Positions 11,088 to 35,450 of a stretch of DNA of 44,138 nt are shown here, piece by piece (the first letter of the stretch is position 1; every line of letters begins with the position of its first letter). This stretch comes from a virus. The stretch spans positions 1-44,138 of IMG/VR virus record IMGVR_UViG_3300008267_009701. The stretch is one strand, 5' to 3'. The translations under genes were made by a program, and so were the position numbers. The notes beneath the pieces are model-generated. The model was not told where the DNA came from, did not search any database, and was given only the letters and a program-made list of their open reading frames with translations.

Positions 11088-11117
11088 GAGATTGGGTAAA
11101 ATTTTTATCATTTTATG

Positions 11118-11145: not shown

Positions 11146-11556
11146 AAAAAAGTGGTTAGATTAACTGAAAACGATATAGAAAAATTAGTTAAAAAAATTA
11201 TAAAAGAAGAGGGTGAAGAAAAACAAAATAGTGCTACAATGACTAAACACCCAGCGTATTCTGTTATAGATGATTTAGGTTCAAAATTAGAAACTTTAAA
11301 GGATGACTTTAAAAAAGGTATTGCTAATTCTGTTTCTGGTTCAGATGGTTATCATAGTGAGATAGATAAATTCTCTAGTGAATTTACAAACTTCATTGGT
11401 AAATTAGAAAAGTTAAAAACAAAAATTAATGATTACCAAGAAGTGGAGAATAAAAAATATGAGGCCGAAAAAAGAAAAAGAGCTGAAGAAGAGAGAAAAA
11501 TGAAAACTCAAAAAAGATATCAAGACCACATGAGTGGTAGAAATTATTCTTATTAA
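11143..11556 (+). CDS. Small protein with putative capsid-targeting N-terminus (relative of 3460-3750)
   Basis: 137 residues from the ATG at 11143. Residues 1-26 (KVVRLTENDIEKLVKKIIKE then EGEE) match the start of the protein at 3460 at 19 of 22 positions, while the codons differ at many synonymous sites. The body is helical with a C-terminal coiled coil (about 75-125, LKTKINDYQEVENKKYEAEK, Lys/Glu/Arg-rich). No enzyme family was recognised. It is a one-gene late unit with its own promoter element and terminator, far from the head genes. Packaging into the head is inferred from the shared N-terminus. Confidence 0.7.
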   Translation: MKKVVRLTENDIEKLVKKIIKEEGEEKQNSATMTKHPAYSVIDDLGSKLETLKDDFKKGIANSVSGSDGYHSEIDKFSSEFTNFIGKLEKLKTKINDYQEVENKKYEAEKRKRAEEERKMKTQKRYQDHMSGRNYSY

Positions 11557-17941: not shown

Positions 17942-18754
17942 TTAGACTGTATGTTCTTCTACGTTATATGTCATTCCCCTATCTTGTTTAAAATAACATT
18001 CTTTTTTAGCTGTATTAAACCACCATTTTGCTTCAAGAGGATTCATTTTCTCTTCACCATTATAATATTCAAAAAATAATGATGATGGTCTCATATTAGT
18101 TTTTTTGTAACCAATTTTAGGGATTGTCATGATTTTTTTATCGTAATAAGTCATTCTTAAGAAAAACTCATAATTAAATTGTAATTTAATACTTGGTTTT
18201 AATTTACCTACAGATTCAAAAGATTCTTTTCTTATAACCGAACCAGATAATTGGAAACTAGGGTAGTTTAATAAAGCGTCATTATCTAACATACCGATTT
18301 TATCTGAAAAATCTTTAGCCCAAACAGGTTCATTAGTAAAATGTAAAAATCTACCTTCAGTATTAGCATCTAATACAATTGGTAAAAATACATCAACCTC
18401 ATCGTAATAATTAGAATATTTACTGAAATTACTAAACCAAATTTTAGAATACTCATCATCCATTTCTAAAATAGAAAACCATTCAGTCTCAACTTTAGAA
18501 ACACCGTAATTAATTTGGGAACAAAAATCTGTTTCACCATCATTTTCCACTATTTCTAAAATAGATTTTATTTTATCATCATATTCAAAAGATTCTACCG
18601 TATTTTTAACTTCACTACCTTTAGGTACTACAACCAATAATTTAGTAGGTAATTCTTGTTGTTCTCTAATACTAGCTATAGCTTTAGCGAAATAATCTTT
18701 TTCTTCTTCGTTAATTCTATGTACCGGTAAAATAACTGTTACTTTATTATCCAT
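17942..18754 (-). CDS. Family 2 glycosyltransferase
   Basis: 270 residues with a GT-A fold start (VTVILPVHRINEEEKDYFAKAIASIREQ) and an acidic metal-site motif ILEMDDEYS at about 96-103. Later SGSVIRKESFESVGKLKP and YEFFLRMTYYDK match the acceptor side of GT2 enzymes. It would transfer a sugar from a nucleotide donor; donor and acceptor are unknown. It overlaps the upstream GT-B gene by 8 nt and is the last sugar gene before the sigma factor gene. Confidence 0.82.
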   Translation of the reverse strand: MDNKVTVILPVHRINEEEKDYFAKAIASIREQQELPTKLLVVVPKGSEVKNTVESFEYDDKIKSILEIVENDGETDFCSQINYGVSKVETEWFSILEMDDEYSKIWFSNFSKYSNYYDEVDVFLPIVLDANTEGRFLHFTNEPVWAKDFSDKIGMLDNDALLNYPSFQLSGSVIRKESFESVGKLKPSIKLQFNYEFFLRMTYYDKKIMTIPKIGYKKTNMRPSSLFFEYYNGEEKMNPLEAKWWFNTAKKECYFKQDRGMTYNVEEHTV

Positions 18755-19844
18755 TGTTTTCTTCTGTTTTTGTTTCTGTTGTTATTGTTAAATCATATTG
18801 TTCTAAACTCTTCTCAAACTCTGAAATTATTTTTTTAGTTAAATTTTCAAAATAATTTTTAATAGTTTCTTTTTGTTCTTCGGGTTTATATTTTGTACTT
18901 GTTTCATCCATTTCTGTGTACAATTCTTGTGGTTCTAAATCTTCTAACCAAGCTTGTAAGTAATTACCCAAAATATCTACAATGTTATTAACATTATTAG
19001 TCCACATACCATTTCTATCTGTCATCCATTCAGGTACCATATTAGGTACTTTACCAATAACAGGTACACCACATCTCATAGATTCTAAAGGGAAAGTACC
19101 AAAACCAGAAACATCATCAATCCAAACTGAAACACAAGATTCAGCTAAATTTTCAGCAAATTTCTCTCTAGACATACCTCTTAAATCTCTAAAAGAAATC
19201 CATTTTAAATGAGGGTATTTAACATAAAATGTTTTAAATATTTTTAGAGTATCTCTTTGGTCTCTAGTATAAATTGTTACGATTGGTTTTTTAGGTTCTT
19301 CGGATTTTTTGAAGTACTCTGGGATTGATATTGATGTTACCCCTACTTCCATTAATGGATTTGAAAATAAATTTTCAATATATTCTTTTTGTGTTTCAGA
19401 GGTTGTGATAACGTCTCTTACTTTGTAATCGGACCAATTTTTACCAGGTTCTAACATTTCAAAAATATAATCATATGCTTGTGACATAACCATTTTTCTA
19501 CAAGGTAAACCTTTAATTTGTTCTAGAACATTACCAAAAATTTCTGGTATAATAACCAAATCAACACCACTAACTTTTAACTCATTTCTTTCAATTGATA
19601 AATGTGGTAAATTACCGTATTCTTCTCCTAACCAAGATGAAGCGTTTACGTAATCATTTTTTTCATGTAAAATATATGCTTTATAACCTAATTCAGTCAA
19701 AACTTTTACATGTTCATAAACGTTAGCTACACCAGCTGTAGGTGTACCTTTAGTATCCATAGTAAAAAAATAAATACCAAAGTCTTTTTTTGATATTTTT
19801 TCAATGTTGGACTCGATTTGTTTTACAATTTCTAGTTTTTCCAT
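18747..19844 (-). CDS. GT-B glycosyltransferase (GT4-like)
   Basis: 365 residues. The N-terminal Rossmann-like half contains GTPTAGVANVYEHVKVLTELGYKAYILH, the usual GT4 start. The C-terminal half has SVWIDDVSGFGTFPLESMRCGVPVIGKVPNMVPEWM (about 240-275), which carries the GT4 donor-binding E and the G-x-P-V-I pattern. The C-terminal ~60 residues are a charged helix rich in Glu and Thr. It lies 2 nt from the upstream small gene and overlaps the GT2 gene. The substrate is not predictable. Confidence 0.8.
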   Translation of the reverse strand: MEKLEIVKQIESNIEKISKKDFGIYFFTMDTKGTPTAGVANVYEHVKVLTELGYKAYILHEKNDYVNASSWLGEEYGNLPHLSIERNELKVSGVDLVIIPEIFGNVLEQIKGLPCRKMVMSQAYDYIFEMLEPGKNWSDYKVRDVITTSETQKEYIENLFSNPLMEVGVTSISIPEYFKKSEEPKKPIVTIYTRDQRDTLKIFKTFYVKYPHLKWISFRDLRGMSREKFAENLAESCVSVWIDDVSGFGTFPLESMRCGVPVIGKVPNMVPEWMTDRNGMWTNNVNNIVDILGNYLQAWLEDLEPQELYTEMDETSTKYKPEEQKETIKNYFENLTKKIISEFEKSLEQYDLTITTETKTEENNG

Positions 19845-19846
19845 TT

Positions 19847-20200
19847 TTAACTTCTGTTTCTTTTTATTAATTTATTTTTTATTAAAGTGTTAAACGCCAA
19901 TTTAAAAGGTATACTTAATTGGTCCTCTAATTTTTGCACTCCCATAGCTTCATCAACAATACTATTTTCAGTGAGTATCGCTTCTATTAAACCTTTAGTT
20001 ATTTCCCATTTTGCTACATCGACCATAGGTCCTTGTAAATCTAAAACAGAAATTTCTTCCTCTTTAGTACCTTCAGTACCATCTTCTTTTTCTAGTAAAT
20101 CTTTTAGATTTCTAGGATCTTCTTCTTCTACTTTAACAAAGTCTGTAATAGCTTTTATGTCTAAGTAATATTGCTCTCCGGCTATACCAAATAATTCCAT
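19847..20200 (-). CDS. Conserved small phage protein
   Basis: 117 residues from the ATG at 20200 (a TTG two codons upstream is less likely). A short N-terminal part (ELFGIAGEQYYLDIKAITDFV) is followed by an acidic linker and a helical C-terminal domain (VAKWEITKGLIEAILTE, LEDQLSIPFKLAFNTLIKNKLIK). It looks like a compact binding or regulatory protein. No family was recognised. It stands in the same-direction gene train between the HAD-like gene and the GT-B gene. Confidence 0.6.
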   Translation of the reverse strand: MELFGIAGEQYYLDIKAITDFVKVEEEDPRNLKDLLEKEDGTEGTKEEEISVLDLQGPMVDVAKWEITKGLIEAILTENSIVDEAMGVQKLEDQLSIPFKLAFNTLIKNKLIKRNRS

Positions 20201-20236
20201 AATCAATTATTAATAATAAATTTTAATATGTAAACT

Positions 20237-20932
20237 TTAAAGGACCCATTCACCCTCACCTCCATCAAAAATACTTTTAATTGAGTTTATAGTAAAGCTA
20301 TCAATTTCTTTAATTGTTTTAATATTTAAGTCTGATTGAGTCATTAGTTTATTGTATTCTTTTTCAACCCTAACACAAATTTTATTTTTAGGTTTAGTTT
20401 TTATAATTGTAGGATGGTCGGTAATCATAACATCAACATGGTCCCAAACTTTTTCATATTCTGTAACAAATTTTATGTTAGGACACATCGATTTAGTTTT
20501 TGATAAAAAGAATAATGTTGATGGTATTGCTAAACCTCCTTCTCTTGTTATTATAATAAATTCATGTTCAGGATTCTCTAATATTAAATTATTTAAAGTT
20601 TCTATAGCGGAACTAACAATTTCATTAGCATAACCAAAAATTTCTAATGTACATTTTTCGTACATAAATTCTTCTAAAGTAACTTTATTTTTAACATTTA
20701 ATAATTTAGTTTCTTCTTTTGAATCAAAAAAAGAATCTTCATTAAAATTAGGGTTAAACTCTAATTCTGCTTGTACAATTTCTTCTTCAGGAAAAGTAAT
20801 CCAATTTTCTAAATCATAGTCTTTTATTTCTATTGGTTCATCCTCTTCATTAGCAAAGTATTTTTGGAAAGTATTTTCTATTTGACCAAAGTAATCACGT
20901 AAAACATTATCTATTGAAACTCCTATTTTCAT
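20237..20932 (-). CDS. HAD-like / 5'-nucleotidase-like protein
   Basis: 231 residues. The start KIGVSIDNVLRDYFGQ resembles HAD motif I as found in phage and deoxy-nucleotidase relatives (hydrophobic-D-x-D/N-x-V), although the first Asp of the usual D-x-D pair is replaced by Ser. A second strand, HEFIIITREGG (about 128-138), fits motif II with Thr, and VDVMITDHPTIIKTKPKNKICVRV (about 167-190) fits the motif III/IV end. With the altered motif I, catalytic activity is doubtful. It lies 13 nt downstream of phoH. Confidence 0.45.
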   Translation of the reverse strand: MKIGVSIDNVLRDYFGQIENTFQKYFANEEDEPIEIKDYDLENWITFPEEEIVQAELEFNPNFNEDSFFDSKEETKLLNVKNKVTLEEFMYEKCTLEIFGYANEIVSSAIETLNNLILENPEHEFIIITREGGLAIPSTLFFLSKTKSMCPNIKFVTEYEKVWDHVDVMITDHPTIIKTKPKNKICVRVEKEYNKLMTQSDLNIKTIKEIDSFTINSIKSIFDGGEGEWVL

Positions 20933-20945
20933 ATAAAATATTTTT

Positions 20946-21701
20946 TTAATTTTTTCTTTTAGTATTAGGAATTTTACCAGCAGCTAAAGCCATTTCATAG
21001 TTATCGATAATCTTTATAAGTAATGGGTCCCTAACAATATCCGCTCTCTCAAATTTAAAATGAAACATCTGTTCATCATTACCTAAAATATCGTTTATAA
21101 AGAAATCTAATGCAACATATTTTTCGTTAATATCATTTTGCCTTGAGTCACCAATAATAGCTATTTTAGAACCTTGTCCAAACCTAGTAATAGTAGTCAT
21201 TAATTGTTTGATGTCAGCATTTTGCATCTCATCACAAATAATAAATGAATTTTTGAATGTTCTACCTCTCATGTAAGCGATAGGTTGCATTTTAATAGTA
21301 CCATTATCCAACCACATTTTAAGTGTTTTAGAGTCTACCATTTCAGTTAAATTGTCCATGAAAGATTCAAAGAAAGGTGCTATTTTATCTTTTTCAGTAC
21401 CAGGTAAAAAACCTAAATCCTCACCTGAAGTCTCTAAAGGTTTAACTAAAACAATTCTCCTAACTTCATTTTTTTGTAAGGCTTTAACTGCTGCATAACA
21501 AGCAGTAAATGTTTTAGAAGTTCCTGGAGGACCTACAATACTTATTATTCTAGCGTCTTTAATACCATTATAAAGTTCGTATTGTTTTTCGGATAATTTA
21601 ACGGATAAATAATTAGAAAATTCTTTATTGACTTGTTCATTTTCTAAGTATTCGTCATAAGATTCTTGTACATTTATCTTATTTTTTCTTTTAGTCATCA
21701 T
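20946..21701 (-). CDS. phoH: PhoH-like ATPase
   Basis: 251 residues. Walker A GPPGTSKT (57-64), the PhoH block VLVKPLETSGEDLGFLPGT (84-102), Walker B FIICDEMQN (153-161), and the sensor GDSRQND (184-190) are all present and well spaced. PhoH proteins are RNA helicase-like or nuclease-linked ATPases common in large phages; their phage role is not settled. The N-terminal ~40 residues are a charged extension. It is the most secure early/middle-type gene in this part of the operon and lies between an SDR gene and the HAD-like gene. Confidence 0.92.
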   Translation of the reverse strand: MMTKRKNKINVQESYDEYLENEQVNKEFSNYLSVKLSEKQYELYNGIKDARIISIVGPPGTSKTFTACYAAVKALQKNEVRRIVLVKPLETSGEDLGFLPGTEKDKIAPFFESFMDNLTEMVDSKTLKMWLDNGTIKMQPIAYMRGRTFKNSFIICDEMQNADIKQLMTTITRFGQGSKIAIIGDSRQNDINEKYVALDFFINDILGNDEQMFHFKFERADIVRDPLLIKIIDNYEMALAAGKIPNTKRKN

Positions 21702-21721
21702 AGTTTATTTTTATTAAAATA

Positions 21722-22576
21722 TTAATAATTGTTCTCGATTAAAAAATTATTTTGGAATAATTTTTTTGTAAAATCAGACATTTCTTTAATTTGTGTATCT
21801 AAATTTGGTATTTTGAATTTGGCTAGGTTATCCAAATATATAGTGGATAAACTACGGTCTACTTTAGTATTAACAGATACCGGTGTTATATCTATGCCCA
21901 AATTAAAATGTTTATTAATTAATGAAGATAATTCATACTTATTTAAGGTATCTGAATGCAAATGTTTTATACCCGACCAATATAAATTATTGTCTATCAT
22001 AGCTTCAACAATTTTAGCAAACTGTAGACAAGTAACACCATTCCATTTATGATTTAAATAACCATTTATTTTACCATCTTTATTAGATTTAATCCATTCA
22101 ACTAAAGATCTACCATTACCAACCTCTTCACCTATAATAGAAGTTCTAATGACCGTACAATTTTCAGGTTCACCTAAAGATTTTGTTCTACCATAAACAT
22201 CACTAATGTCATGTGAATCTTTTTCATCGTACTGACCCTTATCACCTGTATAAACACAGTCTGTTGTTGGGTGAATCATTCTTACACCCATATTTTGACA
22301 AACATTTGCCAATATTCTAGGGAATACTGAATTAACCTGTATAGCGTTTAAATCACCTAAAGAGTCTACCATAGGTTTAATAGTACCGATACAGTTAATT
22401 ACTATATCCCCTTCTTTTAAACCTAGATGAAATAATTTAGCTTGTAATTCTTCTTGACGTACACTAGATGCGTCAATTTCATTTCTAGTAATATCTACTA
22501 CTGTATATCGATTTTTTAAATAGGTAGAAACATATCTACCTAACATCCCATTTGATCCAAAAACAAAAATTTTCAT
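21722..22576 (-). CDS. SDR sugar-nucleotide reductase (RmlD/CapF-like)
   Basis: 284 residues. The nucleotide-binding start is IFVFGSNGMLGRYVSTYL (G-x-x-G-x-x-G). TTDCVYTG (about 103-110) carries the catalytic Ser/Thr position, and DVYGRTKSLGE supplies the Tyr-x-x-x-Lys pair. These are typical of extended SDR enzymes of the dTDP-4-dehydrorhamnose reductase type. It would reduce a 4-keto sugar nucleotide. It lies 3 nt downstream of the cupin gene. In bacterial CapF a similar SDR is fused to a cupin, so the two genes may act together. Confidence 0.8.
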   Translation of the reverse strand: MKIFVFGSNGMLGRYVSTYLKNRYTVVDITRNEIDASSVRQEELQAKLFHLGLKEGDIVINCIGTIKPMVDSLGDLNAIQVNSVFPRILANVCQNMGVRMIHPTTDCVYTGDKGQYDEKDSHDISDVYGRTKSLGEPENCTVIRTSIIGEEVGNGRSLVEWIKSNKDGKINGYLNHKWNGVTCLQFAKIVEAMIDNNLYWSGIKHLHSDTLNKYELSSLINKHFNLGIDITPVSVNTKVDRSLSTIYLDNLAKFKIPNLDTQIKEMSDFTKKLFQNNFLIENNY

Positions 22577-22579
22577 ATT

Positions 22580-22996
22580 CTATCTATAATCTTCTTCCCA
22601 GATATTCCATCTGTCATGTTCTTCTCTAATATCATCACCTAAACTTTCTTCTAATGTGGATGTAGAGAAAAATATTATTTTAGTATTTTCTTCTAATGAT
22701 TTAAACCCATTATAGTTACCTGGTGGTATCCATAAAATTTTAGGTAATTTATCACTTAATATAAATTTAGAAATTTCTTCGGTTTTTATGTTAACAACAC
22801 CTATTAAAGCTGACCCACTCGCAACATATACATATTTACCTTCTTTTTCGTGTCCATGCCAAGCTCTAATAAAACCTCTTTGATGGTTTTCAACTTGATA
22901 AAATCTTTTTACGCCATCAAAATTAAAGTCATTAACAAATCTCACTGAACCTCTATCATCTATAGATAATCCACCACTTAAAACTTTTATCTCCAT
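22580..22996 (-). CDS. RmlC-like cupin, sugar-nucleotide epimerase/isomerase
   Basis: 138 residues, a single cupin domain. RFYQVENHQRGFIRAWHGHEKEGKYVYVASGSALIGVV contains the RmlC-like core with RAWHGH (metal or catalytic His), followed by KILWIPPGNYNGFKSLEE. These enzymes epimerise or isomerise 4-keto sugar nucleotides, or serve as the cupin half of CapF. The gene overlaps the SDR gene upstream by one base and is 3 nt from the SDR gene downstream, making a three-gene sugar cassette. Confidence 0.78.
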   Translation of the reverse strand: MEIKVLSGGLSIDDRGSVRFVNDFNFDGVKRFYQVENHQRGFIRAWHGHEKEGKYVYVASGSALIGVVNIKTEEISKFILSDKLPKILWIPPGNYNGFKSLEENTKIIFFSTSTLEESLGDDIREEHDRWNIWEEDYR

Positions 22997-23958
22997 TAAA
23001 TAAGTTCGTTTTTTTCTTTTTTATTCTTTAAATAGGTACCATTATGATACACTTTATCTTCAGGATTTTCAACCCTATTCTCATTAAATAATTTTAACAT
23101 ACGATTAACCTCATCTTCAACGGTTACTCGTGGTTTGTATTTAAAGGTATTTAAAGATTTGGTATTATCTACTCTATAATTTCTAGCGTCTTGGAAAGAT
23201 ATTTCTGTGTAATTTATTTTAGTGTTGGGTATTAATTTAGCTACTCTTTCACCAAGTTCTTTAATGATAACATTTTCTTTAGCTAAAACAAAAATACCTT
23301 CATATTCTTCTTTACAAGTCTCAGTTACATATTCAGCAATATCCTTAACAGCTATAATAGGTCTCCATTGTTCACCACCATTAATAGTTATTTCATTATC
23401 TTTAACAGCTTTCATTGTTAAAACGTTAACTACTAAATCCATTCTTAAACGTGAATAAGTGTCACCTAAACCAAAAACAGTACCTAACCTAAATATAGTA
23501 CCACCTTTTTCTAATATATGTTTTTCAGCTTCTAATTTTGTTGACGCGTAAGACGATAAAGGATTTGTATCACTTTCTTCATTTAGTAATCCGTCTTGAG
23601 CACCATATACTGAACAAGTAGACATAAAAACTAAGTGTTTAGAAGGTGAAACAACATCACAGAAATCTTTTATGGCTTTATAATTTATTTCTTCTGTTAA
23701 TTTATTATCAACACTACAAGCTGGGTCACCAACTAAAGCTGACATTAATACTATAACATCAAAATCTTTTGACACATTATAGAGTTTTTCAGTATCTCTA
23801 ATATCACCATATATAAAAGGTATTTCTTTTAAAAACCTATTCTCATATAATAAATTATCATAAACAGTCACATCAAAACCATCTCTTATCAAATAATCAC
23901 AGGTTAAACCACCAATATAACCAGCTCCACCACATACTAAAACTTTTTTATTTCCCAT
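22996..23958 (-). CDS. NAD-dependent sugar-nucleotide epimerase/dehydratase (SDR)
   Basis: 320 residues. The Rossmann start VLVCGGAGYIGGLTCDYL (GGAGYIG) is clear. MSTCSVYG (about 111-118) and SSYASTKLEAE supply the Ser and Tyr-x-x-x-Lys catalytic set. FRLGTVFGLGDTYSRLRMDLV and GGEQWRPIIAVKDIAEY are typical of UDP-hexose 4-epimerase/dehydratase relatives. The product sugar cannot be fixed. It is the first gene of the three-gene SDR-cupin-SDR cassette and follows a methyltransferase gene by 7 nt. Confidence 0.85.
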   Translation of the reverse strand: MGNKKVLVCGGAGYIGGLTCDYLIRDGFDVTVYDNLLYENRFLKEIPFIYGDIRDTEKLYNVSKDFDVIVLMSALVGDPACSVDNKLTEEINYKAIKDFCDVVSPSKHLVFMSTCSVYGAQDGLLNEESDTNPLSSYASTKLEAEKHILEKGGTIFRLGTVFGLGDTYSRLRMDLVVNVLTMKAVKDNEITINGGEQWRPIIAVKDIAEYVTETCKEEYEGIFVLAKENVIIKELGERVAKLIPNTKINYTEISFQDARNYRVDNTKSLNTFKYKPRVTVEDEVNRMLKLFNENRVENPEDKVYHNGTYLKNKKEKNELI

Positions 23959-23965
23959 AAATTTA

Positions 23966-24499
23966 CTATTTTAAAAATTTATTAACTCTTTTGTCGGATT
24001 TTCTTTTAACTATTGTTAATCCGGCTTGAGTTAAGGGTAATGTCATAACATCAAAATCTGTATAGTTTTCTCTAATCCATGTATCCATTTTATATGAATC
24101 ACCACAATAACCATGGTCTAAATACATTTCTTCCATTGGGTCTGTGTCATGTAAGATTACCATACCAAACTCATTTAATAATTTTATAGAATTCATAAAA
24201 TCTTTTTTAACAGACTCAAAATTATGGTCTGCATCAATAAAAACAACATCAACCTTTTCATTAAAATGTTCAAAAAAGCTATCTGTTGTTTCTAAATAGA
24301 ACTCACCTATTTTCCATTTTCTTACATCTTTAATATCAACACTTATTATTCTATCCACAAAAGGTTGTACTAATGATAATGTAATACCATCATATATACC
24401 TAATTCTAAATAAGTTTTACAATTTATCTGTTTAACTAATTCAGCTATAAAATGTGAGTGGTTATATTTAAAACCTGGGTAACCTAATTTATCTTCCAT
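23966..24499 (-). CDS. Class I SAM-dependent methyltransferase (Methyltransf_24-like)
   Basis: 177 residues. TYLELGIYDGITLSLVQPF (about 34-52) is the SAM-binding strand-loop, DRIISVDIKDV the next acidic strand, and VDVVFIDADHNFESVKKDF (about 83-101) the motif found in small-molecule O-methyltransferases with a D-x-D-H metal site. Such enzymes often act on sugars or sugar-linked substrates, which fits the surrounding glycan genes. It overlaps its upstream neighbour by one base. Confidence 0.78.
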   Translation of the reverse strand: MEDKLGYPGFKYNHSHFIAELVKQINCKTYLELGIYDGITLSLVQPFVDRIISVDIKDVRKWKIGEFYLETTDSFFEHFNEKVDVVFIDADHNFESVKKDFMNSIKLLNEFGMVILHDTDPMEEMYLDHGYCGDSYKMDTWIRENYTDFDVMTLPLTQAGLTIVKRKSDKRVNKFLK

Positions 24500-25392
24500 T
24501 ATATAATACTTTTAATTAATTTATTCCATTTATTCATACAACTAGATTTATCATAACCTAAATCTAAAAAATGTTTTCTAGGTGAAAAATTACCTAGATT
24601 ATTCATAACATATTCTATTTTATTTTTAAAATTACCATCCAAAACCCTAACACCCCATTCACCATCTTCCTTATCATAGTACACACCAACATTTGTTGTT
24701 ACTAAAGGTAAATTACATGCAGCTGCCTCAATACCTGATAAATGTTGGGTTTCTACGACAGATGTACAAATAAGTAATGAACAAGAATTTATAACTTTAA
24801 TTAATAAATCATGTGGGATACGATTAAATACTTTTACTCTTGGGTGGTCTATACTAAAGTCGTCTTTCATAACTAAACAAAAATTATAATTAGTTGTATT
24901 TATTAACTCTAATACTCTATCAAACCCTTTTGGGTGGTTTTGACTAGAACCAATAAATAAAATAGAATTATCTAATATATCTAACTCATCTTTAAAACTT
25001 TTGTTTGGTTTAAAAATATTAAAATCTACACCTAAAGGTATTATTTCTGTCCTACAATTAACTTGTGGGTAATTAACTTTTGTATATAATGAATTAAAAA
25101 CTACCACAGATGAGTTATTACATACATCCATTCTTCCGTGACCTAAATCTTGTAACAAAGAAATTGTTGGTACATTTAAAGGTATGGGTGGGAAAAATGA
25201 ACCGTTTCTTATGATATAATCAGGTTTACCTTCATTAAGACTATACTCCAGTATTTTATCACTTAAAATATTATATGATGTATAACCATTACATTTATCT
25301 TCTAACCCATTTACATTTTCTAATAAATCATGCCAAAAAGTCTTAGTACCTGGTATACAAGTTAAAGTATCGTTCACTAACCAACCCCTCAT
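24499..25392 (-). CDS. GT-B glycosyltransferase (GT4-like)
   Basis: 297 residues. The middle shows the linker ending in IIPLGVDFNIFKPN (about 126-139), a GT4 hallmark, then SILFIGSSQNHPKGFDRVLELI (about 150-170). Donor-site VVETQHLSGIEAAACNLPLVTTNVGVYYD follows (about 222-250). The N-terminal domain is short (~125 residues) compared with usual GT4 enzymes. It adjoins a methyltransferase gene on each side. Confidence 0.8.
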   Translation of the reverse strand: MRGWLVNDTLTCIPGTKTFWHDLLENVNGLEDKCNGYTSYNILSDKILEYSLNEGKPDYIIRNGSFFPPIPLNVPTISLLQDLGHGRMDVCNNSSVVVFNSLYTKVNYPQVNCRTEIIPLGVDFNIFKPNKSFKDELDILDNSILFIGSSQNHPKGFDRVLELINTTNYNFCLVMKDDFSIDHPRVKVFNRIPHDLLIKVINSCSLLICTSVVETQHLSGIEAAACNLPLVTTNVGVYYDKEDGEWGVRVLDGNFKNKIEYVMNNLGNFSPRKHFLDLGYDKSSCMNKWNKLIKSII

Positions 25393-25393
25393 T

Positions 25394-26089
25394 TTATTTT
25401 TTCATTACGATTTTAAAGTGACTCCCATGAGTCTTATTTATGAAATTATTAACATTTTCATCTAATAATTTAGTATTATCATAATATTCTATAGACACTA
25501 AATTATTTTTATATCTAATTTTAAACTCCTCAAAAAATTTATTGGTTAAAATACCTACATGACCTCTTTCATTATCACTAAATGTTTGTTCATTTGGGGT
25601 ACTAATAAATAACAAACCCTCTTCGTTTAAAGAAGACAAACATTTATCTATTAATTGATAATGAAATCTATGTTTAATATGTTCCAATGTTTCTACTAGA
25701 AATATATAATCAGAATTTATTAAATCATTTTTTAATATATCTTCACAAAAATATTTAGTATTATTATTTGTGTTATATGTTAAACAAAATTCTATAGACT
25801 CTTTGTCTATATCATAACCATAAACAACACTTTTTTTAAAAATATCTGAAATATTTATTGTACAAAATCCAACACCACATCCTAAATCTAATATAGTAGA
25901 TTCATCTTTAACATCATTTAAAAATGCTCTATATAAACCCCAATGTTCATTAGCCCATTTACTATATTTTTTATGTTCGTCAACATCAGTTTCAGCTAAA
26001 CCAGGGCCTACCCATACTGGTCTAACATCACCATCATGAAAAATAATATTTTTCATGTCATTCAATAATTTTAAATCATTTATTACCAT
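25394..26089 (-). CDS. Class I SAM-dependent methyltransferase
   Basis: 231 residues from the ATG at 26089, 2 nt after the upstream stop; a GTG at 26107 inside the preceding gene is an alternative. STILDLGCGVGFCTINISD is a textbook SAM motif I (DLGCGVG), YGYDIDKESIEFC motif II, and IFLVETLEHIKHR with SLNEEGLLFISTPNE motifs III-IV of UbiG/Methyltransf_23-like enzymes. The substrate is unknown, probably a glycan or its lipid or sugar precursor given its neighbours. Confidence 0.82.
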   Translation of the reverse strand: MVINDLKLLNDMKNIIFHDGDVRPVWVGPGLAETDVDEHKKYSKWANEHWGLYRAFLNDVKDESTILDLGCGVGFCTINISDIFKKSVVYGYDIDKESIEFCLTYNTNNNTKYFCEDILKNDLINSDYIFLVETLEHIKHRFHYQLIDKCLSSLNEEGLLFISTPNEQTFSDNERGHVGILTNKFFEEFKIRYKNNLVSIEYYDNTKLLDENVNNFINKTHGSHFKIVMKK

Positions 26090-26090
26090 A

Positions 26091-26822
26091 TTAACTATCT
26101 TTTTCACCTTCTTGTATATGATATACTAATGAATCAAATACTGTTATATGTTTCATACCATATTCATTCTCTAATTTTTTAAAATACCAATCATCACCAC
26201 TTTGAATTACTCCGTTTGGGTGAAGGGTACCGATACCGTCCATATAGATATTACCTTCAGGGTATAAACCACTTTCTATAAATTTATTTTTTTCAAAAAT
26301 ACAAGGCATAAATAAACCACCTTCTCTTACTTCTTCAGTTTTTATTTGTTTTGAAAAATTATCCCATAATTCATAATTTATTTGTTTAGGTGACCTGCCA
26401 CAATTAAAAGAAACACCGTGAGTACCACTCAACATTTTACCACTTTCAACTAATCTTGATGTTGGTATATTTGTTCCGTCATGATGTTTTAATAAATTAC
26501 TTAACCAATTTTCACTAAACACCATATCAGAATTTACAAAACAAATATTATCATATTCACTAGTAATACCAGCATGGTTCCAACAACGATAAACTCTATT
26601 TAAATAATAATCACTTGGTTTAGGGTCATTATAAATTGTGTATTTTATATCTAATGTTTTTAGTTTATTAATCACCTCATCTGTAGCATCATTAGCAACA
26701 ATACGAACACCAATATCCCAACCCTCTACTTTACATTTATCACTTTTTAATTCGTTATATATTAATTCTAAATAATCTAACGACTTAAATATTAAACTTA
26801 TAATTTCTATATTTTTATTCAT
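26091..26822 (-). CDS. GT-A glycosyltransferase (GT2-like)
   Basis: 243 residues. The order is strand start IEIISLIFKSLDYLELIYNELKSD, VRIVANDATDEVINKL, then DNICFVNSDMVFSENWL (about 88-104), whose N-S-D is the metal-site position. GGLFMPCIFEKNKFIESGLYPEG and SGDDWYFKKLENEYGM supply the acceptor-side acidic pair. It fits GT2-like enzymes. It lies between the methyltransferase gene and the broken GT17 gene. Confidence 0.75.
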   Translation of the reverse strand: MNKNIEIISLIFKSLDYLELIYNELKSDKCKVEGWDIGVRIVANDATDEVINKLKTLDIKYTIYNDPKPSDYYLNRVYRCWNHAGITSEYDNICFVNSDMVFSENWLSNLLKHHDGTNIPTSRLVESGKMLSGTHGVSFNCGRSPKQINYELWDNFSKQIKTEEVREGGLFMPCIFEKNKFIESGLYPEGNIYMDGIGTLHPNGVIQSGDDWYFKKLENEYGMKHITVFDSLVYHIQEGEKDS

Positions 26823-26823
26823 A

Positions 26824-27048
26824 TTAATTTTCTTCGTAAAAAAAATGTGGGTATTTTTTTAAAAATGTATCCATCATTTTAGGTTTATTATCAGTAATAT
26901 TCACAATTTTCTTTTGTGCATAATCCTCAGTTCTGTTCCACAAATCTTTTTGTGATTCCATTTTTTCTTTAATATTATCTACGTCACCGATTTCATCAAT
27001 AATATAATGAGATTCAGCTATACTGTTGTGGTGAACTAAAAGTACCAT
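26824..27048 (-). pseudogene. C-terminal fragment of a broken GT17-type glycosyltransferase
   Basis: The frame holds 74 codons to the stop at 26824. Its readable part (IIDEIGDVDNIKEKMESQKD ... NKPKMMDTFLKKYPHFFYEEN) looks like the C-terminal end of a family 17 glycosyltransferase (the x-G-G/D-x-E/D-x-I-K-x-K segment and the final P-x-x-x... F). It is in another frame from the N-terminal piece at 27014-27508, with a 35-nt overlap. The G-W-H-F segment that family members carry just before this point is absent, so a small deletion with a frameshift is likely. Re-expression from the internal ATG is possible but would give no fold. Confidence 0.6.
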
Positions 27049-27508
27049 AAGAGGCCATTATAGGCCCATTCCATTCACAATTTTGTTCACAATTAACATA
27101 ATAATAGTATAATTTTTGTTTAAAAGTCACCCATCTATTATCTGTTAAATTTTCTTTAATCGTTTCAGGATTTGGTATTTCGTCTATATCTGAAACAATA
27201 ATTTTATCACCATTTTCAGCATAATCTACTAATCCTCTCATAATACAATTTCTTTGATAATTTTCTGCTGTCCATATATCATTTTGAGAATAGGGTGGTA
27301 AATCATCTACTTTGACATGGATTATTTTATTCAAATAATCTTTAAACATTTCTTTATTTTCCTCAAAAATATAAGGCTTTTCTTTTCCTGTGTGTGTTTT
27401 ATTTGCTTCAACTAAAACAAAATAATCAACAACATCATTTAACTCCATTAACCTAAGTTCTAACAACTCTAATTCGTTAAAGAATTTAAAACAATCAAAT
27501 ATTTTCAT
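27014..27508 (-). CDS. N-terminal part of a GT17-type glycosyltransferase, truncated by frameshift
   Basis: 164 residues. KIFDCFKFFNELELLELRLMEL, then VDYFVLVEANKTHTGKEKP, then YAENGDKIIVSDIDEIPNP (about 98-116, with the D-x-D of the active site) is the standard start of family 17 (beta-1,4-N-acetylglucosaminyltransferase-like) enzymes, usually ~280 residues. It stops soon after WNGPIMASYGTF, and the remainder is in another frame downstream. The donor site is intact but the C-terminal part is lost, so the enzyme is probably inactive unless a frameshift restores it. Confidence 0.7.
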   Translation of the reverse strand: MKIFDCFKFFNELELLELRLMELNDVVDYFVLVEANKTHTGKEKPYIFEENKEMFKDYLNKIIHVKVDDLPPYSQNDIWTAENYQRNCIMRGLVDYAENGDKIIVSDIDEIPNPETIKENLTDNRWVTFKQKLYYYYVNCEQNCEWNGPIMASYGTFSSPQQYS

Positions 27509-27514
27509 AATTTT

Positions 27515-28294
27515 TTATTTGTTAACTTCCCAAGTACTTTCTTTCATGGTTTTATTATATAATAAATCTCTATTTTTATTTATTAATTCTGTAGTGTTTA
27601 AGTGACTATAATTATTACTAGAATAATGCCATTGGTGAACAACAAATGGGTTATTAATAAATTTAGTTTTTAAACCCATTCTATCTATTCTAATCAAAAT
27701 TTCATTATCATCATAAGCAATACCATCAGCATACCTTTCATCAAAACCACCTAACTTATCTAAATCTGATTTTTTTATAGCTGAGGTAAAATGAAATCTA
27801 ACAGGTCTATATAAACTATGGTTATACCAACCGTTATCACCATCGTGTGTAACGGATTTTGGTTCGGGGTTTATAACATTTAAAATATTATCTAATGATA
27901 AGTCAACTTCTTTTAAATTATCAGTTTTTTCTTTACTTATAGAGTAACAACCAAAACTATAATATTCACCCTCTTTTATTGATAAAGAACTTTTTAATAC
28001 ATCACCTACATGTAAACATTCTGGATTTTGTATAATTATTATATCACCTTTAGCCTCTTTAAAACCTATATTAAAAGGAATACAAGGGTTTATATACCAC
28101 TTATCTTTTTTTTCCAATCTAATAATTTTTAAAAATTTAAATTCATCTAATAATGATTCTAATCTGTGTTCCTCATCACTATAATCATCTACAACTATTA
28201 CTTCGATATCTTTAATTTCTGAATTAGAAATACTTTTTAAAGTATTATAGAATTGATTTTTTCTATTATGAAAAGCCGTTACTATAGATATCAT
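27515..28294 (-). CDS. Family 2 glycosyltransferase
   Basis: 259 residues. The start ISIVTAFHNRKNQFYNTLKSI and IEVIVVDDYSDEE (about 31-43) are classical GT2. NIGFKEAKGDIIIIQNPECLHVGD replaces the usual D-x-D with N-P-E, and GGFDERYADGIAYDDNEILIRIDRMG supplies the acceptor-side ED-like pair. Probably active on a nucleotide sugar, but the altered metal site is noteworthy. It overlaps the 2-epimerase gene by 4 nt. Confidence 0.85.
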   Translation of the reverse strand: MISIVTAFHNRKNQFYNTLKSISNSEIKDIEVIVVDDYSDEEHRLESLLDEFKFLKIIRLEKKDKWYINPCIPFNIGFKEAKGDIIIIQNPECLHVGDVLKSSLSIKEGEYYSFGCYSISKEKTDNLKEVDLSLDNILNVINPEPKSVTHDGDNGWYNHSLYRPVRFHFTSAIKKSDLDKLGGFDERYADGIAYDDNEILIRIDRMGLKTKFINNPFVVHQWHYSSNNYSHLNTTELINKNRDLLYNKTMKESTWEVNK

Positions 28295-29355
28295 AGTTTT
28301 TCTTTTAAAATATTAATTATTTTTTCTGATGTTGTACCGTCACCTAACCAAGTCACATCCCTTTTATTACAATTTAATAATAACCAACTTTCACTATGAG
28401 TCCATGTTCTATCCATTTTATTATTAACATTTATCATAAATGAACAATTATTTTCTACTGATTCTGGTCTTTCAGTAAAATCTCTCGGTACTATTACTGG
28501 TGTGTTAAGTAAAGACGGTTCTTCTTGTGCTGTACCAGAATCAGATATTATGAATTTTGAGTGGTGGACTTCATTTATATATTTTTTAAAAGGCAATAAA
28601 TCAATAACTTTTATATTACCTAAATCTATATTATATTCTTTTATATAATCTAATGTCCTTTTAAATCCTAACATATATACAGGTAAATCGTACAATTGAC
28701 CCATATTATTTGAATATTTAATAATATTTTCTAATCTATTTTTATATTTGAAATTTTCAGGTCTATGTATATCTAAAATGATTCTATCATTTTTTTTAAC
28801 TTCTAAAGGTTTAAATTTTTTAACTACCTCAACTATAGTATTTCCGACTACATGTATAGATTCGTTTGGTATATTTTCTTTTAAAGCTTTATTTTTATAA
28901 TTTTCATGATAAACAAAAAGAAAATCACTACAATGGTCACAAACAATTCTATTAATTTCTTCTAACATTCTTTTATCATATGAACGCATTCCAGCTTCAA
29001 TATGACCTATTTTATATCCTTCTTTTTTAAGAGATACGGCAGAAGTAACAGAATTAGAATCTCCTAAAAAAATAATAATATCGGGGTTTAAATTTTTAGA
29101 TCTTATTAATTCTATTAATTTTACCGATAAATCTGCTGTTTGGTGAAAATGTTCTTTTCCTACACCACCTATTTCCAAATTATAATCAGGTTTTCTTATT
29201 TCTAATTCATCGAAAAAAACATCGGATAATAGTTTATCAAAATGTTGTCCTGTATGTATTAATACGTGATTAAAATTTTGATCTAATTTTTTAAAAATCT
29301 CAGACATTCTAATAAAATCAGGTCTTATACCTGTTACTGTTAAAACTGTTTTCAT
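28291..29355 (-). CDS. wecB: UDP-N-acetylglucosamine 2-epimerase family (WecB/FnlC-like)
   Basis: 354 residues. The full family signature is present: VTGIRPDFIRMSEI (7-20), HTGQHFDKLLSDVFFDEL (35-52), FLGDSNSVTSAV (~95-106), HIEAGMRSYDKRMLEEINRIVCDHCSDF (~117-144), DIHRPENF, and ISDSGTAQEEPSLLNTPVI near the C-terminus. The fold is GT-B-like. It converts UDP-GlcNAc to UDP-ManNAc or acts on a related UDP-6-deoxy sugar. IRM and IRKPDYNLE lean slightly to FnlC/CapG-type, but WecB-type is equally likely. It overlaps both neighbours by 4 nt. Confidence 0.9.
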   Translation of the reverse strand: MKTVLTVTGIRPDFIRMSEIFKKLDQNFNHVLIHTGQHFDKLLSDVFFDELEIRKPDYNLEIGGVGKEHFHQTADLSVKLIELIRSKNLNPDIIIFLGDSNSVTSAVSLKKEGYKIGHIEAGMRSYDKRMLEEINRIVCDHCSDFLFVYHENYKNKALKENIPNESIHVVGNTIVEVVKKFKPLEVKKNDRIILDIHRPENFKYKNRLENIIKYSNNMGQLYDLPVYMLGFKRTLDYIKEYNIDLGNIKVIDLLPFKKYINEVHHSKFIISDSGTAQEEPSLLNTPVIVPRDFTERPESVENNCSFMINVNNKMDRTWTHSESWLLLNCNKRDVTWLGDGTTSEKIINILKEKL

Positions 29356-30131
29356 ATTTCTATGTTAAATCTATTACCTATTTCTATTAATTTATATCTA
29401 CCTGGTGGTTTACCTGGCATTAAAGCATCATCCCCCTCACTCCAATTATTAAAATAATCTAAAAATTCAGGTATCCATGACTCAAAATTAACTTTAGCTG
29501 ACGAATTTTTTAATTTTTTCTCAATATCTTTTCTAACATAACTCATATGATGCATCTCAATTTCATTACGAGTAAAAATTTTACATTTACCATATTCAGT
29601 TCTTCTTGTTGGGTCTACTAATACTGGAAATGGGTGTCCAAAAATAAACTCTCTACCTTGTTTTATTTTAAAAGGTAGAGTTACGTAATATTCTTCTTTT
29701 GGTTCTAATCTAAATTTAGGTGATTTATAATACGTAGTCATCTGACAAGCCGATGAATCATAATTTTCATCTTCTATTATTTTTTTCATATTCCTAAATT
29801 CCTCAATATCATAATATTCATCGGAATCCATGGCCATATGATGAGTACAACCTTTACCTTCAGAAAGTGATAAACCAATATTTCTTTTAGTTATTTCGTT
29901 AAAATGACCACCTTTATTTATTTTTGGATTATATTCAAATAATTCATCCACCAAACCCTCATCCTTTAATCTATTTAATAAAGGTATTAACTCCTCACCA
30001 CATTGGTTACCAAAATTAGAAACTGTTTGATAGACTACTGATATATAATCTACTTCAGACCTTATGCATTTTATAGAGCCTTCTAATAATTCTTCCCCAT
30101 CAAAAGTATTATAACTTACACCTAATCTCAT
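29352..30131 (-). CDS. GT-A glycosyltransferase-like protein
   Basis: 259 residues. GVSYNTFDGEELLEGSIKCI and VDYISVVYQTVSNFG form a GT2-like start, and HHMAMDSDEYYDIEEF (about 97-112) carries a D-S-D-E metal-site motif. The C-terminal half is less typical (EIEMHHMSYVRKDIEKKLKN with two His, followed by GDDALMPGKPPGRY). It resembles phage and bacterial GT2-like enzymes of unknown donor. It is coupled by 4-nt overlaps to genes on both sides. Confidence 0.7.
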   Translation of the reverse strand: MRLGVSYNTFDGEELLEGSIKCIRSEVDYISVVYQTVSNFGNQCGEELIPLLNRLKDEGLVDELFEYNPKINKGGHFNEITKRNIGLSLSEGKGCTHHMAMDSDEYYDIEEFRNMKKIIEDENYDSSACQMTTYYKSPKFRLEPKEEYYVTLPFKIKQGREFIFGHPFPVLVDPTRRTEYGKCKIFTRNEIEMHHMSYVRKDIEKKLKNSSAKVNFESWIPEFLDYFNNWSEGDDALMPGKPPGRYKLIEIGNRFNIEI

Positions 30132-31687
30132 TGTACTACACTTTTCATTGTATTATTAATTAAAAATTTTAAATCTTTAGAGGAAATATTATCAAAATAG
30201 TTATAACATTTTTCATTATCAATAATATAAGGTATTATTCTTTTTGTATAATCCTCAGATTCTCTTTTTAATTTTTCCGAATCTTTATTTCTTGTTTGAC
30301 TCTCGTAATGATAACAAACTGCGTCAGACACAAAATAATTTTTTAAATTCCTAGTTAAACAATCAATGTTTAATTCCACATCTTCAAAACATTCTTTATA
30401 TCCCTGATTAAAACCACCTATTTTATTAAAGATGTCTTTTTTAATCATCATAAATGCTGCTGTATTACCAAAAACCTCTTTAGTTTGGGTATGGTAATTA
30501 TAATAAGATTTTAAACCTTTATGTGATAAATGTATTCTTCTATCTTGTCCTAAAAATAATATGATACCAGAATGTTGTATAGTATTATCACTAAAATGTA
30601 ATCTAGCACCAACTGTGCCAACTCCTTTGTTGTTAATTAAAACATTAACCATTTTAGTTATAGCGTTATTAATTAACTTAACATCATTATTACAGAATAA
30701 TAAAACCTCTACATCATCACTAACATGATTCCATACAACATCATTATTTATTTTAGCGAAATTATAGTAATCATACTCAATTAATTTTATATTTCTTAGT
30801 CTATCAGAATGTACTGAATGTTTAGATATTAATTCTTTAATTTTTTCTTTTTCCTCATCAGTAGAACCAGTATCAGCAATATAAACTGTGATTAATGGAT
30901 ATTTGTCTTGTTCCCATATAGAATTAACACATTGTGTTAATAATTCAACATTACCTTTAGTGGGTATTATAACTCCAATATGAGGCAGTTTTTTCAGTTT
31001 AGGGATTTCATTATCAAAAATGATTTCACCTTTTATTTTATGAGGTAAATTACTATTATATTTTTCTATAAATTGTAATCTATTATCTTCCCATTCTTGA
31101 TTAGTCATCCCAATAGATTTATGTGTTATTCTAATATTAGATATAACACCAACCTTAACATCTTTTAAATGATTATTAAAACAAAAATCAATTTCATAAA
31201 AATGGAATCCTTTAAATGATTCATCAAAATTAGATTTTATTTTATCTTTATTTACAGCAAAAAATAAACCATCAACAATAATTGATTGTAATATTTTTTC
31301 ACCAAAATTTGAACAATAGATTGAATCCCACGATTTACCTTGATGTTGGTGTCTTACTTGCCCCATCATTTTAGTGTTGTCTTCCCACCATCTTCCACTT
31401 TCAGATAAATCAGTAGTTCCAGCAACACCTATTATACCATAATCTGAATTATTAAAATGGTTTAATATTTTTTTACCCCAATTATTGGTATTAAAAATAA
31501 TATCGTCATGACAAAAAATTAATATATTATTTTTAGATTCTGTTAAACCTTTATTATAGAATTTAGTTAAAGATTCACCATGATTTATATATTCAATAAT
31601 TTCTATATCTTTTATACCAGAACTTTTTTTAATATGTTCTATATGTTTAGGGTTATGTTCTCTAGTACAATAAACAATACTAATCAT
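30128..31687 (-). CDS. Two-domain GT-A glycosyltransferase
   Basis: 519 residues with two catalytic-type modules. The N-terminal module (about 1-215) has ISIVYCTREHNPKHIEHI, NNILIFCHDDIIF (H-D-D) and GFHFYEIDFCFNNHL. The C-terminal module (about 230-500) is a standard GT2 domain: IGVIIPTKGNVELLTQCVNSIWEQ, VYIADTGSTDEE, LFCNNDVKLIN, EVFGNTAAFMMIKKDIFNKIGGFNQ and CFEDVELNIDC. Two modules in one chain suggest successive transfer of two sugars. It is the first gene in the main sugar cluster by transcription order. Confidence 0.85.
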   Translation of the reverse strand: MISIVYCTREHNPKHIEHIKKSSGIKDIEIIEYINHGESLTKFYNKGLTESKNNILIFCHDDIIFNTNNWGKKILNHFNNSDYGIIGVAGTTDLSESGRWWEDNTKMMGQVRHQHQGKSWDSIYCSNFGEKILQSIIVDGLFFAVNKDKIKSNFDESFKGFHFYEIDFCFNNHLKDVKVGVISNIRITHKSIGMTNQEWEDNRLQFIEKYNSNLPHKIKGEIIFDNEIPKLKKLPHIGVIIPTKGNVELLTQCVNSIWEQDKYPLITVYIADTGSTDEEKEKIKELISKHSVHSDRLRNIKLIEYDYYNFAKINNDVVWNHVSDDVEVLLFCNNDVKLINNAITKMVNVLINNKGVGTVGARLHFSDNTIQHSGIILFLGQDRRIHLSHKGLKSYYNYHTQTKEVFGNTAAFMMIKKDIFNKIGGFNQGYKECFEDVELNIDCLTRNLKNYFVSDAVCYHYESQTRNKDSEKLKRESEDYTKRIIPYIIDNEKCYNYFDNISSKDLKFLINNTMKSVVQ

Positions 31688-35422: not shown

Positions 35423-35450
35423 ATAAAAAACCCGACATTAAGTCGGGTTT
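35423..35450 (-). terminator. Terminator of the small late operon
   Basis: On the minus strand AAACCCGAC (35450-35442) pairs with GTCGGGTTT (35436-35428), loop TTAAT, then TTTTTTATTT. It lies just past the 17-residue ORF. Confidence 0.88.

Follow-up and report, generated by a model that had tools for sequence, protein, structure and literature searches.

We found that the glycan gene island of this phage combines a conserved framework of glycosyltransferases (GTs) with a cassette that related phages exchange as a unit. Only positions 21,702-31,042 of the island (17,942-31,687 of the window, by which we mean the whole 44,138-nucleotide stretch analyzed) belong to the exchangeable cassette, a division that is new in this analysis. 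We consider it reasonably probable that sugar donors are made and a virion protein is glycosylated in the cytosol by enzymes of the cassette and its framework, and that the outer sugars of the glycan are swapped as a block.

Gene content and lineage

The island is a dense run of genes on the minus strand (Table 1; genes are named by their lower coordinate), with intergenic gaps of -35 to +30 bp. ATG-started open reading frames of at least 130 amino acids cover 13,086 of its 13,746 bp, compared with 0 in 100 shuffles. By Pfam, PHROG and fold evidence, the island holds seven intact GT genes (eight modules), and 34061, the first gene of the run, is an eighth. About eight intact GTs had been claimed in the initial annotation, a count that is right for genes once 34061 is included, the island proper having seven. 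Family matches bear out its two SDRs, RmlC-like cupin, UDP-GlcNAc 2-epimerase and two methyltransferases, and we likewise recovered the single direction with tiny gaps and the broken GT17 gene, which appears as two overlapping reading frames (27014 and 26824). Its view of the run as one glycan island stands only in part: the run is dense, but PhoH (20946), the NT5C-like gene 20237 and gene 19847 (without assigned function) are non-glycan genes of the conserved phage backbone, to which GTs 17942, 18747, 34061 and the N-terminal half of 30128 also belong.

The run, which the initial annotation took for part of an early/middle operon, extends on the same strand into baseplate-type genes, among which 13137 has a weak match to a family of baseplate hub proteins. 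The hairpin upstream of 34061 is likely the end of the previous transcript. Sigma-70-like promoters were not commoner between 17 and 36 kb than in shuffled sequence, the Rfam and tRNA scans returned no match, and neither did a DNA-level near-search against annotated phages.

The phage is a member of a large myophage lineage of freshwater type. Moraphages are large aquatic phages of Bacteroidota with genomes of up to 307 kb, and their core includes PolB, PhoH, dUTPase, a prohead protease and four putative GT orthogroups (Perez-Hernandez et al. 2025, PMC12619734). The window has a polymerase, PhoH, a prohead protease (PF03420), a phrog_138 major capsid protein, four backbone GTs (set beside the four core orthogroups by number, not by orthology) and, by sequence motifs only, a dUTPase; TerL falls outside it. 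Variable islands were seen in moraphages and not analyzed, and that paper describes neither an exchangeable glycan cassette at a fixed site nor the enzymes of one (PMC12619734). The bS21 gene was rejected as a lineage marker: it lies beside head genes in the relatives G016, G009 and G013, was found neither in G005 nor in the window, and with such mixed presence does not place the window.

Table 1. Features of the window with coordinates, strand and supporting evidence
Feature	Coordinates	Strand	Evidence
Major capsid protein, candidate acceptor	6921..8702	+	phrog_138 2e-62
GT2	17942..18754	-	PF00535 5.5e-7
GT (GT1/GT4-like, weak)	18747..19844	-	PF00534 7.5e-4, under Pfam cut-off
PhoH, non-glycan, cassette right edge	20946..21701	-	PF02562 3e-56
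RmlD-like SDR, Y128xxxK	21722..22576	-	PF04321 2e-18
RmlC-like cupin	22580..22996	-	PF00908 5e-9
SDR, motifs Y137xxxK, GGAGYIGG	22996..23958	-	closest solved 6vo6/6vo8 E 1e-44
SAM methyltransferase (Methyltransf_24)	23966..24499	-	PF13578 4e-9
GT4-like	24499..25392	-	PF13692 5e-8
SAM methyltransferase	25394..26107	-	PF13489 3e-11
GT, NSD motif	26091..26822	-	predicted GT-A fold
GT17, C-terminal remnant	26824..27048	-	matches C-terminal part of intact GT17 in L032, L037
GT17, N-terminal part of disrupted gene	27014..27508	-	PF04724 1e-26
GT2	27515..28294	-	PF00535 8e-12
Non-hydrolysing UDP-GlcNAc 2-epimerase family	28291..29355	-	PF02350 9e-66
GT2-like, DxD-type motif DSD	29352..30131	-	weak PF00535 9e-3, under Pfam cut-off
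Two-module GT2	30128..31687	-	PF13712 2e-34, PF00535 6e-18
GT, GT-B fold (GT4-like), first gene of run	34061..35377	-	phrog_7162 glycosyltransferase E 5e-41
Terminator-like hairpin just upstream of 34061	35428..35450	-	9-bp stem, 5 GC pairs, T-rich tail

Cassette edges and replacement among relatives

DNA homology to the two closest relatives, G008 and G005, is ~64-90% up to both edges of the cassette and then stops, ending at 21,681/21,702 and restarting at 31,043 in both. A putative GDP-fucose-type cassette takes the place of the window's genes there. PhoH, at the right edge, is 78-85% identical to its counterparts in relatives that carry differing cassettes. The left edge falls inside GT gene 30128, whose N-module is retained as backbone and whose C-module is exchanged (boundary at about nt 31,043); homology of the protein to G005, G008 and G016 ends at aa 228-231. 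The distant phage G016 presents the mirror image, with a median identity of 43% for core proteins and 73% for the cassette (Mann-Whitney, P = 9e-4).

On sequence comparison, four GTs (34061, the N-module of 30128, 18747 and 17942) make up the conserved backbone of the lineage. Gene 34061 is found in nearly all relatives; its Pfam search gave no hit, and the best PDB matches of its AlphaFold model (pLDDT 79) in Foldseek are GT4-type enzymes (E 8e-11). Genes 18747 and 17942 are kept together beside PhoH in syntenic relatives, and 17942 is 45-89% identical to its counterparts.

Every syntenic relative that was fully read at this site carries a dense glycan cassette. The 15 cassette stretches compared contain 149 genes in 80 clusters, 55 of which are singletons, and the alternative sets again consist of GTs, methyltransferases and sugar enzymes. 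One set comprises GMD, a GDP-fucose-synthase-like gene, GT10 and GT11; others include DegT aminotransferases and sulfotransferases, among other genes. GMD (E about 1e-125) is present in six distinct close relatives, none of them of the SDR-cupin-RmlD type; the alternative cassette L008 matches TIGR01472 with 409 bits (cut-off 415), PF16363 at 1e-123 and NF047922 at 7e-70, below cut-off. The initial annotation had proposed a maintained multi-step pathway to a methylated glycan, against which scattered loss among close relatives would speak. The pathway is well supported as a kept function by the dense cassettes of syntenic relatives, but its genes are not maintained: since 11 of 11 cassette genes are absent from G008 and G005, with another set instead, scattered absence applies to genes and not to function.

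Within the cassette, 29352 has homologues in four relatives. Gene 26091 gave no Pfam hit; its AlphaFold model (pLDDT 70.5) has Foldseek matches to GT-A folds (E 2e-6), and the protein shares ~40% identity with one module of the giant GT proteins found in Ignavibacteriota. GT17 is uninterrupted in L032, L037 and L015, the last being otherwise 100% identical to the window, and we therefore conclude that the window's copy lacks ~0.1 kb. The disruption means that the pathway tolerates the loss of one step or more, unless it is an assembly or population variant.

A probable rare-sugar pathway shared with bacteria

Three cassette genes encode, judging from sequence, a probable nucleotide-sugar C4-dehydrogenase/epimerase (22996), a probable 4-keto-sugar 3- and/or 5-epimerase (22580) and a probable 4-keto reductase (21722). 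Gene 22996 resembles Cj1427 of Campylobacter in relationship, NAD motif and YxxxK, and the next best solved structure after Cj1427 matches only at 5e-13. In the Cj1427 pathway the order C4-dehydrogenase, C3/C5-epimerase, C4-reductase is proven (PMC10680097), and the Cj1427-Cj1430-Cj1428 route to GDP-heptose shares with the window the logic of a C4-dehydrogenase, a cupin C3/C5-epimerase and a C4-reductase (PMC10680097). Unlike Campylobacter, other organisms usually add a WecB-like enzyme, and sequence does not fix the substrate in the window. The window's enzyme of this family, 28291, scores 199.1 bits against the WecB/MnaA equivalog TIGR00236, below the curated cut-off of 210.15, and its closest solved structures are 4neq (2e-51) and CapG (7ya2, 4e-46). 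UDP-L-FucNAc synthesis (CapE/F/G) was rejected as the exact pathway. Because the best hit of the SDR lies outside Polysacc_synt_2 and it carries TCS instead of the TDE motif of RmlB, we do not assume a 4,6-dehydratase.

The SDR-cupin-RmlD(-WecB) set is widespread in bacteria as a pathway unit: in 80 cellular loci surveyed with the SDR, the cupin accompanies it in 75, nearly always directly downstream, RmlD in 68 and WecB in 61. It is conceivable, though doubtful, that the sugar is a Campylobacter-like GDP-heptose and not an N-acetylhexosamine. The sole strong solved relative of the SDR is indeed a GDP-heptose C4-dehydrogenase (PMC10680097), but similarity at such depth leaves the substrate unfixed, and the WecB-like epimerase of 61/80 cellular loci belongs to a family that acts on UDP-HexNAc-type sugars.

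The counterparts sharing most genes lie in flagellin glycosylation islands, beside FliW, MotA/B, flagellin and FliD. In those of Stygiobacter/Melioribacteraceae (L126, L139 and L142), WecB, SDR, cupin and RmlD stand in the window's order; a methyltransferase is also present, and so are GT modules akin to 26091 and 24499. These islands differ from the cassette in being bacterial, in their fused giant GTs with TPR and in their place beside flagellin and FliD, and identity is only ~25-56%; none of the window proteins that were scanned is flagellin or flagellar. Flagellin islands are one setting of the unit among several, since it also occurs in non-flagellar loci with multi-TM proteins (e.g., L107, L111 and L136). 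The WecB tree alone sets phage copies beside Ignavibacteriota. The cassette is a mosaic, because the SDR tree does not join the window copy to that group, and Ignavibacteriota were dropped as donor of the whole cassette, phage SDRs sitting at three places in the tree.

Target of the glycan

We propose that a common stem is most likely laid down and lengthened by the four backbone GTs. One or more rare nucleotide sugars would be made by the cassette in the cytosol: the SDR would oxidize a nucleotide sugar at C4, after which the cupin would epimerize C3 and/or C5 and the RmlD-like enzyme would reduce C4; the 2-epimerase may act on the same or on a separate UDP-HexNAc. Because no nucleotidyltransferase (NTP_transferase, PF00483) was found in 14 relative records, the donors would start from host sugar nucleotides. 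Outside the stem, cassette GTs would attach the rare sugars, which the two methyltransferases would then methylate. Recombination at two points, the PhoH edge and the interior of gene 30128, would let relatives exchange the cassette in its entirety, so that related phages would display different sugars, much as bacteria of different serotypes differ in O-antigen.

Capsid or tail proteins, DNA and the host surface had all been listed as possible targets in the initial annotation; among them, the lack of membrane machinery and the flagellin-island counterparts favor a virion protein. We infer that the acceptor is most likely a capsid or tail protein that receives its sugars in the cytoplasm, in the manner of flagellins. 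No multi-TM protein occurs in the 15 cassette stretches and no Wzx-type flippase (PF13440) in the 14 relative records, a pattern consistent with the cytosolic GTs of phage virion glycosylation, which work without lipid-carrier/flippase machinery, and not with gtrABC-type serotype conversion (flippase GtrA, bactoprenol GT GtrB). A flippase lost to elsewhere in the genome found no support in the PF13440 search. The major capsid protein, a candidate acceptor, has a variable region at aa ~100-350 (identity 54-82% to G005 and 32-54% to G016, versus 94-100% and 68-94% outside it).

Virus-coded glycosylation is itself already known from cyanophages, moraphages, mycobacteriophages and giant viruses. 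In mycobacteriophages, proteins of the capsid and tail receive sugars from phage GTs (Freeman et al. 2023, as cited in PMC12619734), the F1 example having two putative GTs in the account of PMC11256854. Megavirinae fibril clusters, as presented in the available text of PMC10117803, comprise 6-33 virus genes with multi-domain GTs and methyltransferases, place their product on the virion and make clade-specific rare amino sugars via dehydratase, 4-reductase and 2-epimerase. They differ in belonging to eukaryotic giant viruses and in starting with a 4,6-dehydratase, and that text describes no conserved-edge cassette exchange.

The cassette is unlikely to build or alter host LPS or capsule sugars during infection, which would exclude competitor phages or change host identity. 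Iyer et al. so read the polymorphic clusters of jumbo cyanophages (PMC7824862), and the bacterial loci in which the four-gene SDR-cupin-RmlD-WecB unit stands with multi-TM proteins would agree. The P-SSM2-type clusters have 15 genes, among them SDRs, isomerases of the cupin type and GTs from several families, and are polymorphic between related phages (Iyer et al. 2021, PMC7824862); they also hold sugar kinases and nucleotidyltransferases, and of the latter the family PF00483 was not found here. Against this reading, neither flippase nor multi-TM protein was found in the records and stretches above, nor any recognized GtrA/GtrB-like gene, host export machinery would need borrowing, and the gene run leads into virion genes.

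We regard it as quite unlikely that the GTs glycosylate modified phage DNA bases and so block restriction. Base glycosylation by phage GTs is known (work cited in PMC12619734), genes of DNA metabolism (polymerase, exonuclease, dUTPase-like) are close to the cassette, and 34061 matches T4 alpha-glucosyltransferase (1y8z) in Foldseek at E 1e-7, among many other GT-B enzymes. A thymidylate-synthase/hydroxymethylase-type gene (PF00303), however, was not found in the 226-, 229- and 249-kb relatives (it is present in 3 of 22 records), and two nucleotide-sugar pathways plus many methyl-, sulfo- and aminotransferases exceed the needs of base protection. Neutral gain and loss of the sugar genes as passing cargo, without stable phage function, is very improbable: the broken GT17 and the high turnover would fit it, but a dense intact cassette is retained by every syntenic relative, all other reading frames are open, base composition fits the phage (23-30% GC) and the lineage as a whole has kept four GTs.

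Beyond glycosylation of a virion protein with block exchange of outer sugars, we tentatively suggest that the site may be a phage serotype locus, in which a flagellin-type cytosolic system makes species-specific virion glycan coats, the block of outer sugars is swapped at two fixed edges and the uncharacterized rare-sugar pathway is shared with many bacteria and archaea. Because one edge lies within a two-module GT gene, stem and outer enzymes would be re-fused at every swap. The analogy to serotypes leaves the selective cause aside.

Glycan clusters of phages tend to be catalogued as auxiliary genes without known target. A conserved GT framework with a cassette that is exchanged as a block at a fixed site makes for a concrete claim, namely, that particle sugars would differ between related phages, and the nearest multi-gene bacterial counterparts of the cassette glycosylate a cytosolic structural protein. 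The cassette also points to an uncharacterized rare-sugar pathway common to many bacteria. For the phages themselves, differing particle sugars may be relevant to escape from binding, grazing or sticking in lakes.

Gene content of the minus-strand run

We analyzed a single metagenomic record from its sequence, a linear viral entry of 44,138 bases and 28% GC. The moraphage paper and capsid matches to Flavobacterium phages suggest a Bacteroidota host, and the freshwater label rests on related literature rather than on a record field. The + strand carries head genes, among them those for a prohead protease (PF03420) and a major capsid protein (phrog_138), and a long − strand run leads from a polymerase gene (37929, assigned from distant matches to DNA polymerase) through the glycan island to baseplate-type genes. 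Within 17942-31687, ORFs that begin with ATG and encode 130 aa or more cover 13,086 of 13,746 bp (reached by 0 of 100 shuffles), and intergenic gaps range from −35 to +30 bp; by the shuffle comparison, this gene-dense run is not due to chance.

Based on Pfam, PHROG and predicted folds, seven intact glycosyltransferase (GT) genes with eight modules lie in this range, plus one at 34061; the initial annotation had correctly placed a GT at 34061 and had counted about eight intact genes in the range. Genes 26091 and 34061 lack Pfam matches, and models of moderate confidence predict GT-A and GT-B folds, respectively. The GT17 gene, described earlier as broken, is indeed interrupted (split ORFs 27014 and 26824), whereas it is uninterrupted in two relatives and in a contig 100% identical over the remaining overlap; the interruption could reflect either variation in the population or faulty assembly. 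The range also holds non-glycan genes, namely PhoH, an NT5C-like gene and a small gene of no assigned function.

A short N-terminal peptide of the "VRLTExDLEKLVKRIIKEE" or "MNIRRIIKEE" type is common to unrelated window proteins and also occurs in the related phage G005. It is similar to a capsid-targeting sequence of the T4 type, has an [IL]xE site at which the prohead protease (2612) would cut, and is enriched at N-termini relative to internal pieces (6/59 versus 2/206 in the window; 7/262 versus 6/1095 in G005). Its bearers, one of them lysozyme-like, are suggested to be internal head proteins. The gene for ribosomal protein bS21, whose position beside head genes has been described for freshwater Bacteroidetes phages (PMC9723584), is found in the relatives G016, G009 and G013, was not detected in G005 and was not seen in the window.

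Coordinates of peptide-bearing genes and other features
Genome	Position	Feature	Observation
Window	3460-3750	Short N-terminal peptide	
Window	3763-4287	Short N-terminal peptide	
Window	4669-5046	Short N-terminal peptide	
Window	11092-11556	Short N-terminal peptide	
Window	40908-41900	Short N-terminal peptide	
Window	15162-16769	Baseplate-region protein	Identity 22-66% versus 43-95% in adjoining 16769; much faster divergence
Window	31907-32398	HslV-family peptidase-like protein (phrog_1040, 1e-20)	Adjoins dUTPase-like gene; up to 98% identity in relatives with more variable other genes
Window	41900-43321	DHH-family phosphoesterase-like protein	Kept throughout lineage
G016	59820-59969 (−)	bS21	Directly adjoins head genes

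Probable exchange of a glycan cassette

Relatives were gathered from both sides by scans with PhoH, exonuclease and 2-epimerase. Almost the entire window is syntenic with G008 (94 kb) and G005 (226 kb), and core proteins are mostly 54-97% identical. DNA homology ends at window position 21,681 (G008) or 21,702 (G005) and restarts at 31,043 in both; 0 of the 11 cassette genes (21722-30131) are present in these genomes, which carry nine (G008) and ten (G005) replacement genes at the site. The left edge falls inside 30128, whose N-terminal module (to aa 228) is kept in both genomes and whose C-terminal module is exchanged; full-length matches to 30128 occur in other relatives (e.g., L017, L018, L028 and L032). 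G016 (229 kb) is the mirror image, with a median identity of 43% for core proteins versus 73% for seven shared cassette proteins (Mann-Whitney, P = 9e−4), including the SDR (89%), cupin (79%) and WecB-like 2-epimerase (78%). The simplest reading of these alignments is that the cassette moves as a block between phage backbones.

Across fifteen cassette stretches, 149 genes fall into 80 clusters, 55 of them singletons. The G005/L008 cassette encodes GT7C-, GT2-, GT11- and GT10-family GTs, FkbM and other methyltransferases, GMD (PF16363, 1e−123) and a GDP-L-fucose-synthase-like SDR, a predicted GDP-fucose module with two fucosyltransferase-family enzymes. GMD is found at ~1e−125 in six distinct close relatives; in the same comparison, the SDR-cupin-RmlD cassette type gives weak SDR matches alone (~1e−15 to 1e−20). 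Further cassettes carry aminotransferases, sulfotransferases, C-methyltransferases, UDP-glucose dehydrogenase and GT25. The predicted "glycan" function is retained at the site while the predicted sugar differs.

Four backbone GTs (34061, the N-terminal module of 30128, 18747 and 17942) recur through the lineage, with identity down to 45-53%, and would be the stem builders. Four putative GT orthogroups belong to the moraphage core genome, for which variable islands were left unexplored (PMC12619734). Phage SDRs fall at three places among cellular SDRs, and phage 2-epimerases form one clade beside Ignavibacteriota and Cloacimonadota. Judging from these trees, the cassette appears to be a mosaic put together more than once; its base composition equals that of the phage.

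Predicted sugar pathway and candidate target

The sole strong solved relative of the SDR (22996) is 6vo6/6vo8 (1e−44; next, 5e−13), which the database titles merely a putative sugar-nucleotide epimerase/dehydratase and which we take to be Cj1427. Cj1427 is the C4-dehydrogenase, followed by a C3/C5-epimerase and then a C4-reductase (PMC10680097). Among 80 cellular relatives sampled by SDR similarity, 75 have the cupin, 68 the RmlD-like gene and 61 the WecB-like gene, and SDR-cupin-RmlD(-WecB) is therefore a widespread functional unit. This unit of three to four genes is conserved across many phyla (L126, L139, L142 and other cellular loci), in some cases adjoining giant multi-GT proteins and flagellar genes. 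It is possibly an uncharacterized rare-sugar pathway, whose likely logic would be C4 oxidation, C3/C5 epimerization and C4 reduction of a putative nucleotide-sugar substrate, with C2 epimerization on the same sugar or another. Because a nucleotidyltransferase was found in none of 14 relative records, the activated sugars are probably host derived.

The cellular loci with most genes in common with the cassette (WecB, SDR, cupin, RmlD, a methyltransferase, and 26091-like and 24499-like GTs) are from Ignavibacteriota, and sit between MotA, MotB and FliW at one end and flagellin with FliD at the opposite end (L126: flagellin, 1e−16, and FliD, 8e−13; L142: FliW, 2e−23). The L142 contig has flagellins at both locus ends, and two Paenibacillaceae have flagellins ~19 kb from the SDR. 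O-glycosylation of flagellin takes place in the cytosol. Given also that no multi-TM protein occurs in the fifteen cassette stretches and no PF13440 in the 14 relative records, these observations point to a virion-protein target; against it, multi-TM proteins are present in other SDR-cupin-RmlD-WecB loci. The capsid protein, variable at aa 100-350, is a candidate glycan acceptor.

Glycan clusters of phages and viruses are already known as a kind: cyanophage sugar clusters have been interpreted as tools acting on the host surface (PMC7824862), giant-virus fibril glycosylation clusters are another kind (PMC10117803), and virion GTs are known in mycobacteriophages (cited in PMC12619734). The best matches in isolated or named phages reach 32% for the SDR, 33% for the 2-epimerase and 34% for 34061. 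The new elements are cassette exchange at fixed edges in a framework of GTs, the edge within a fused gene and the flagellin-type pathway.
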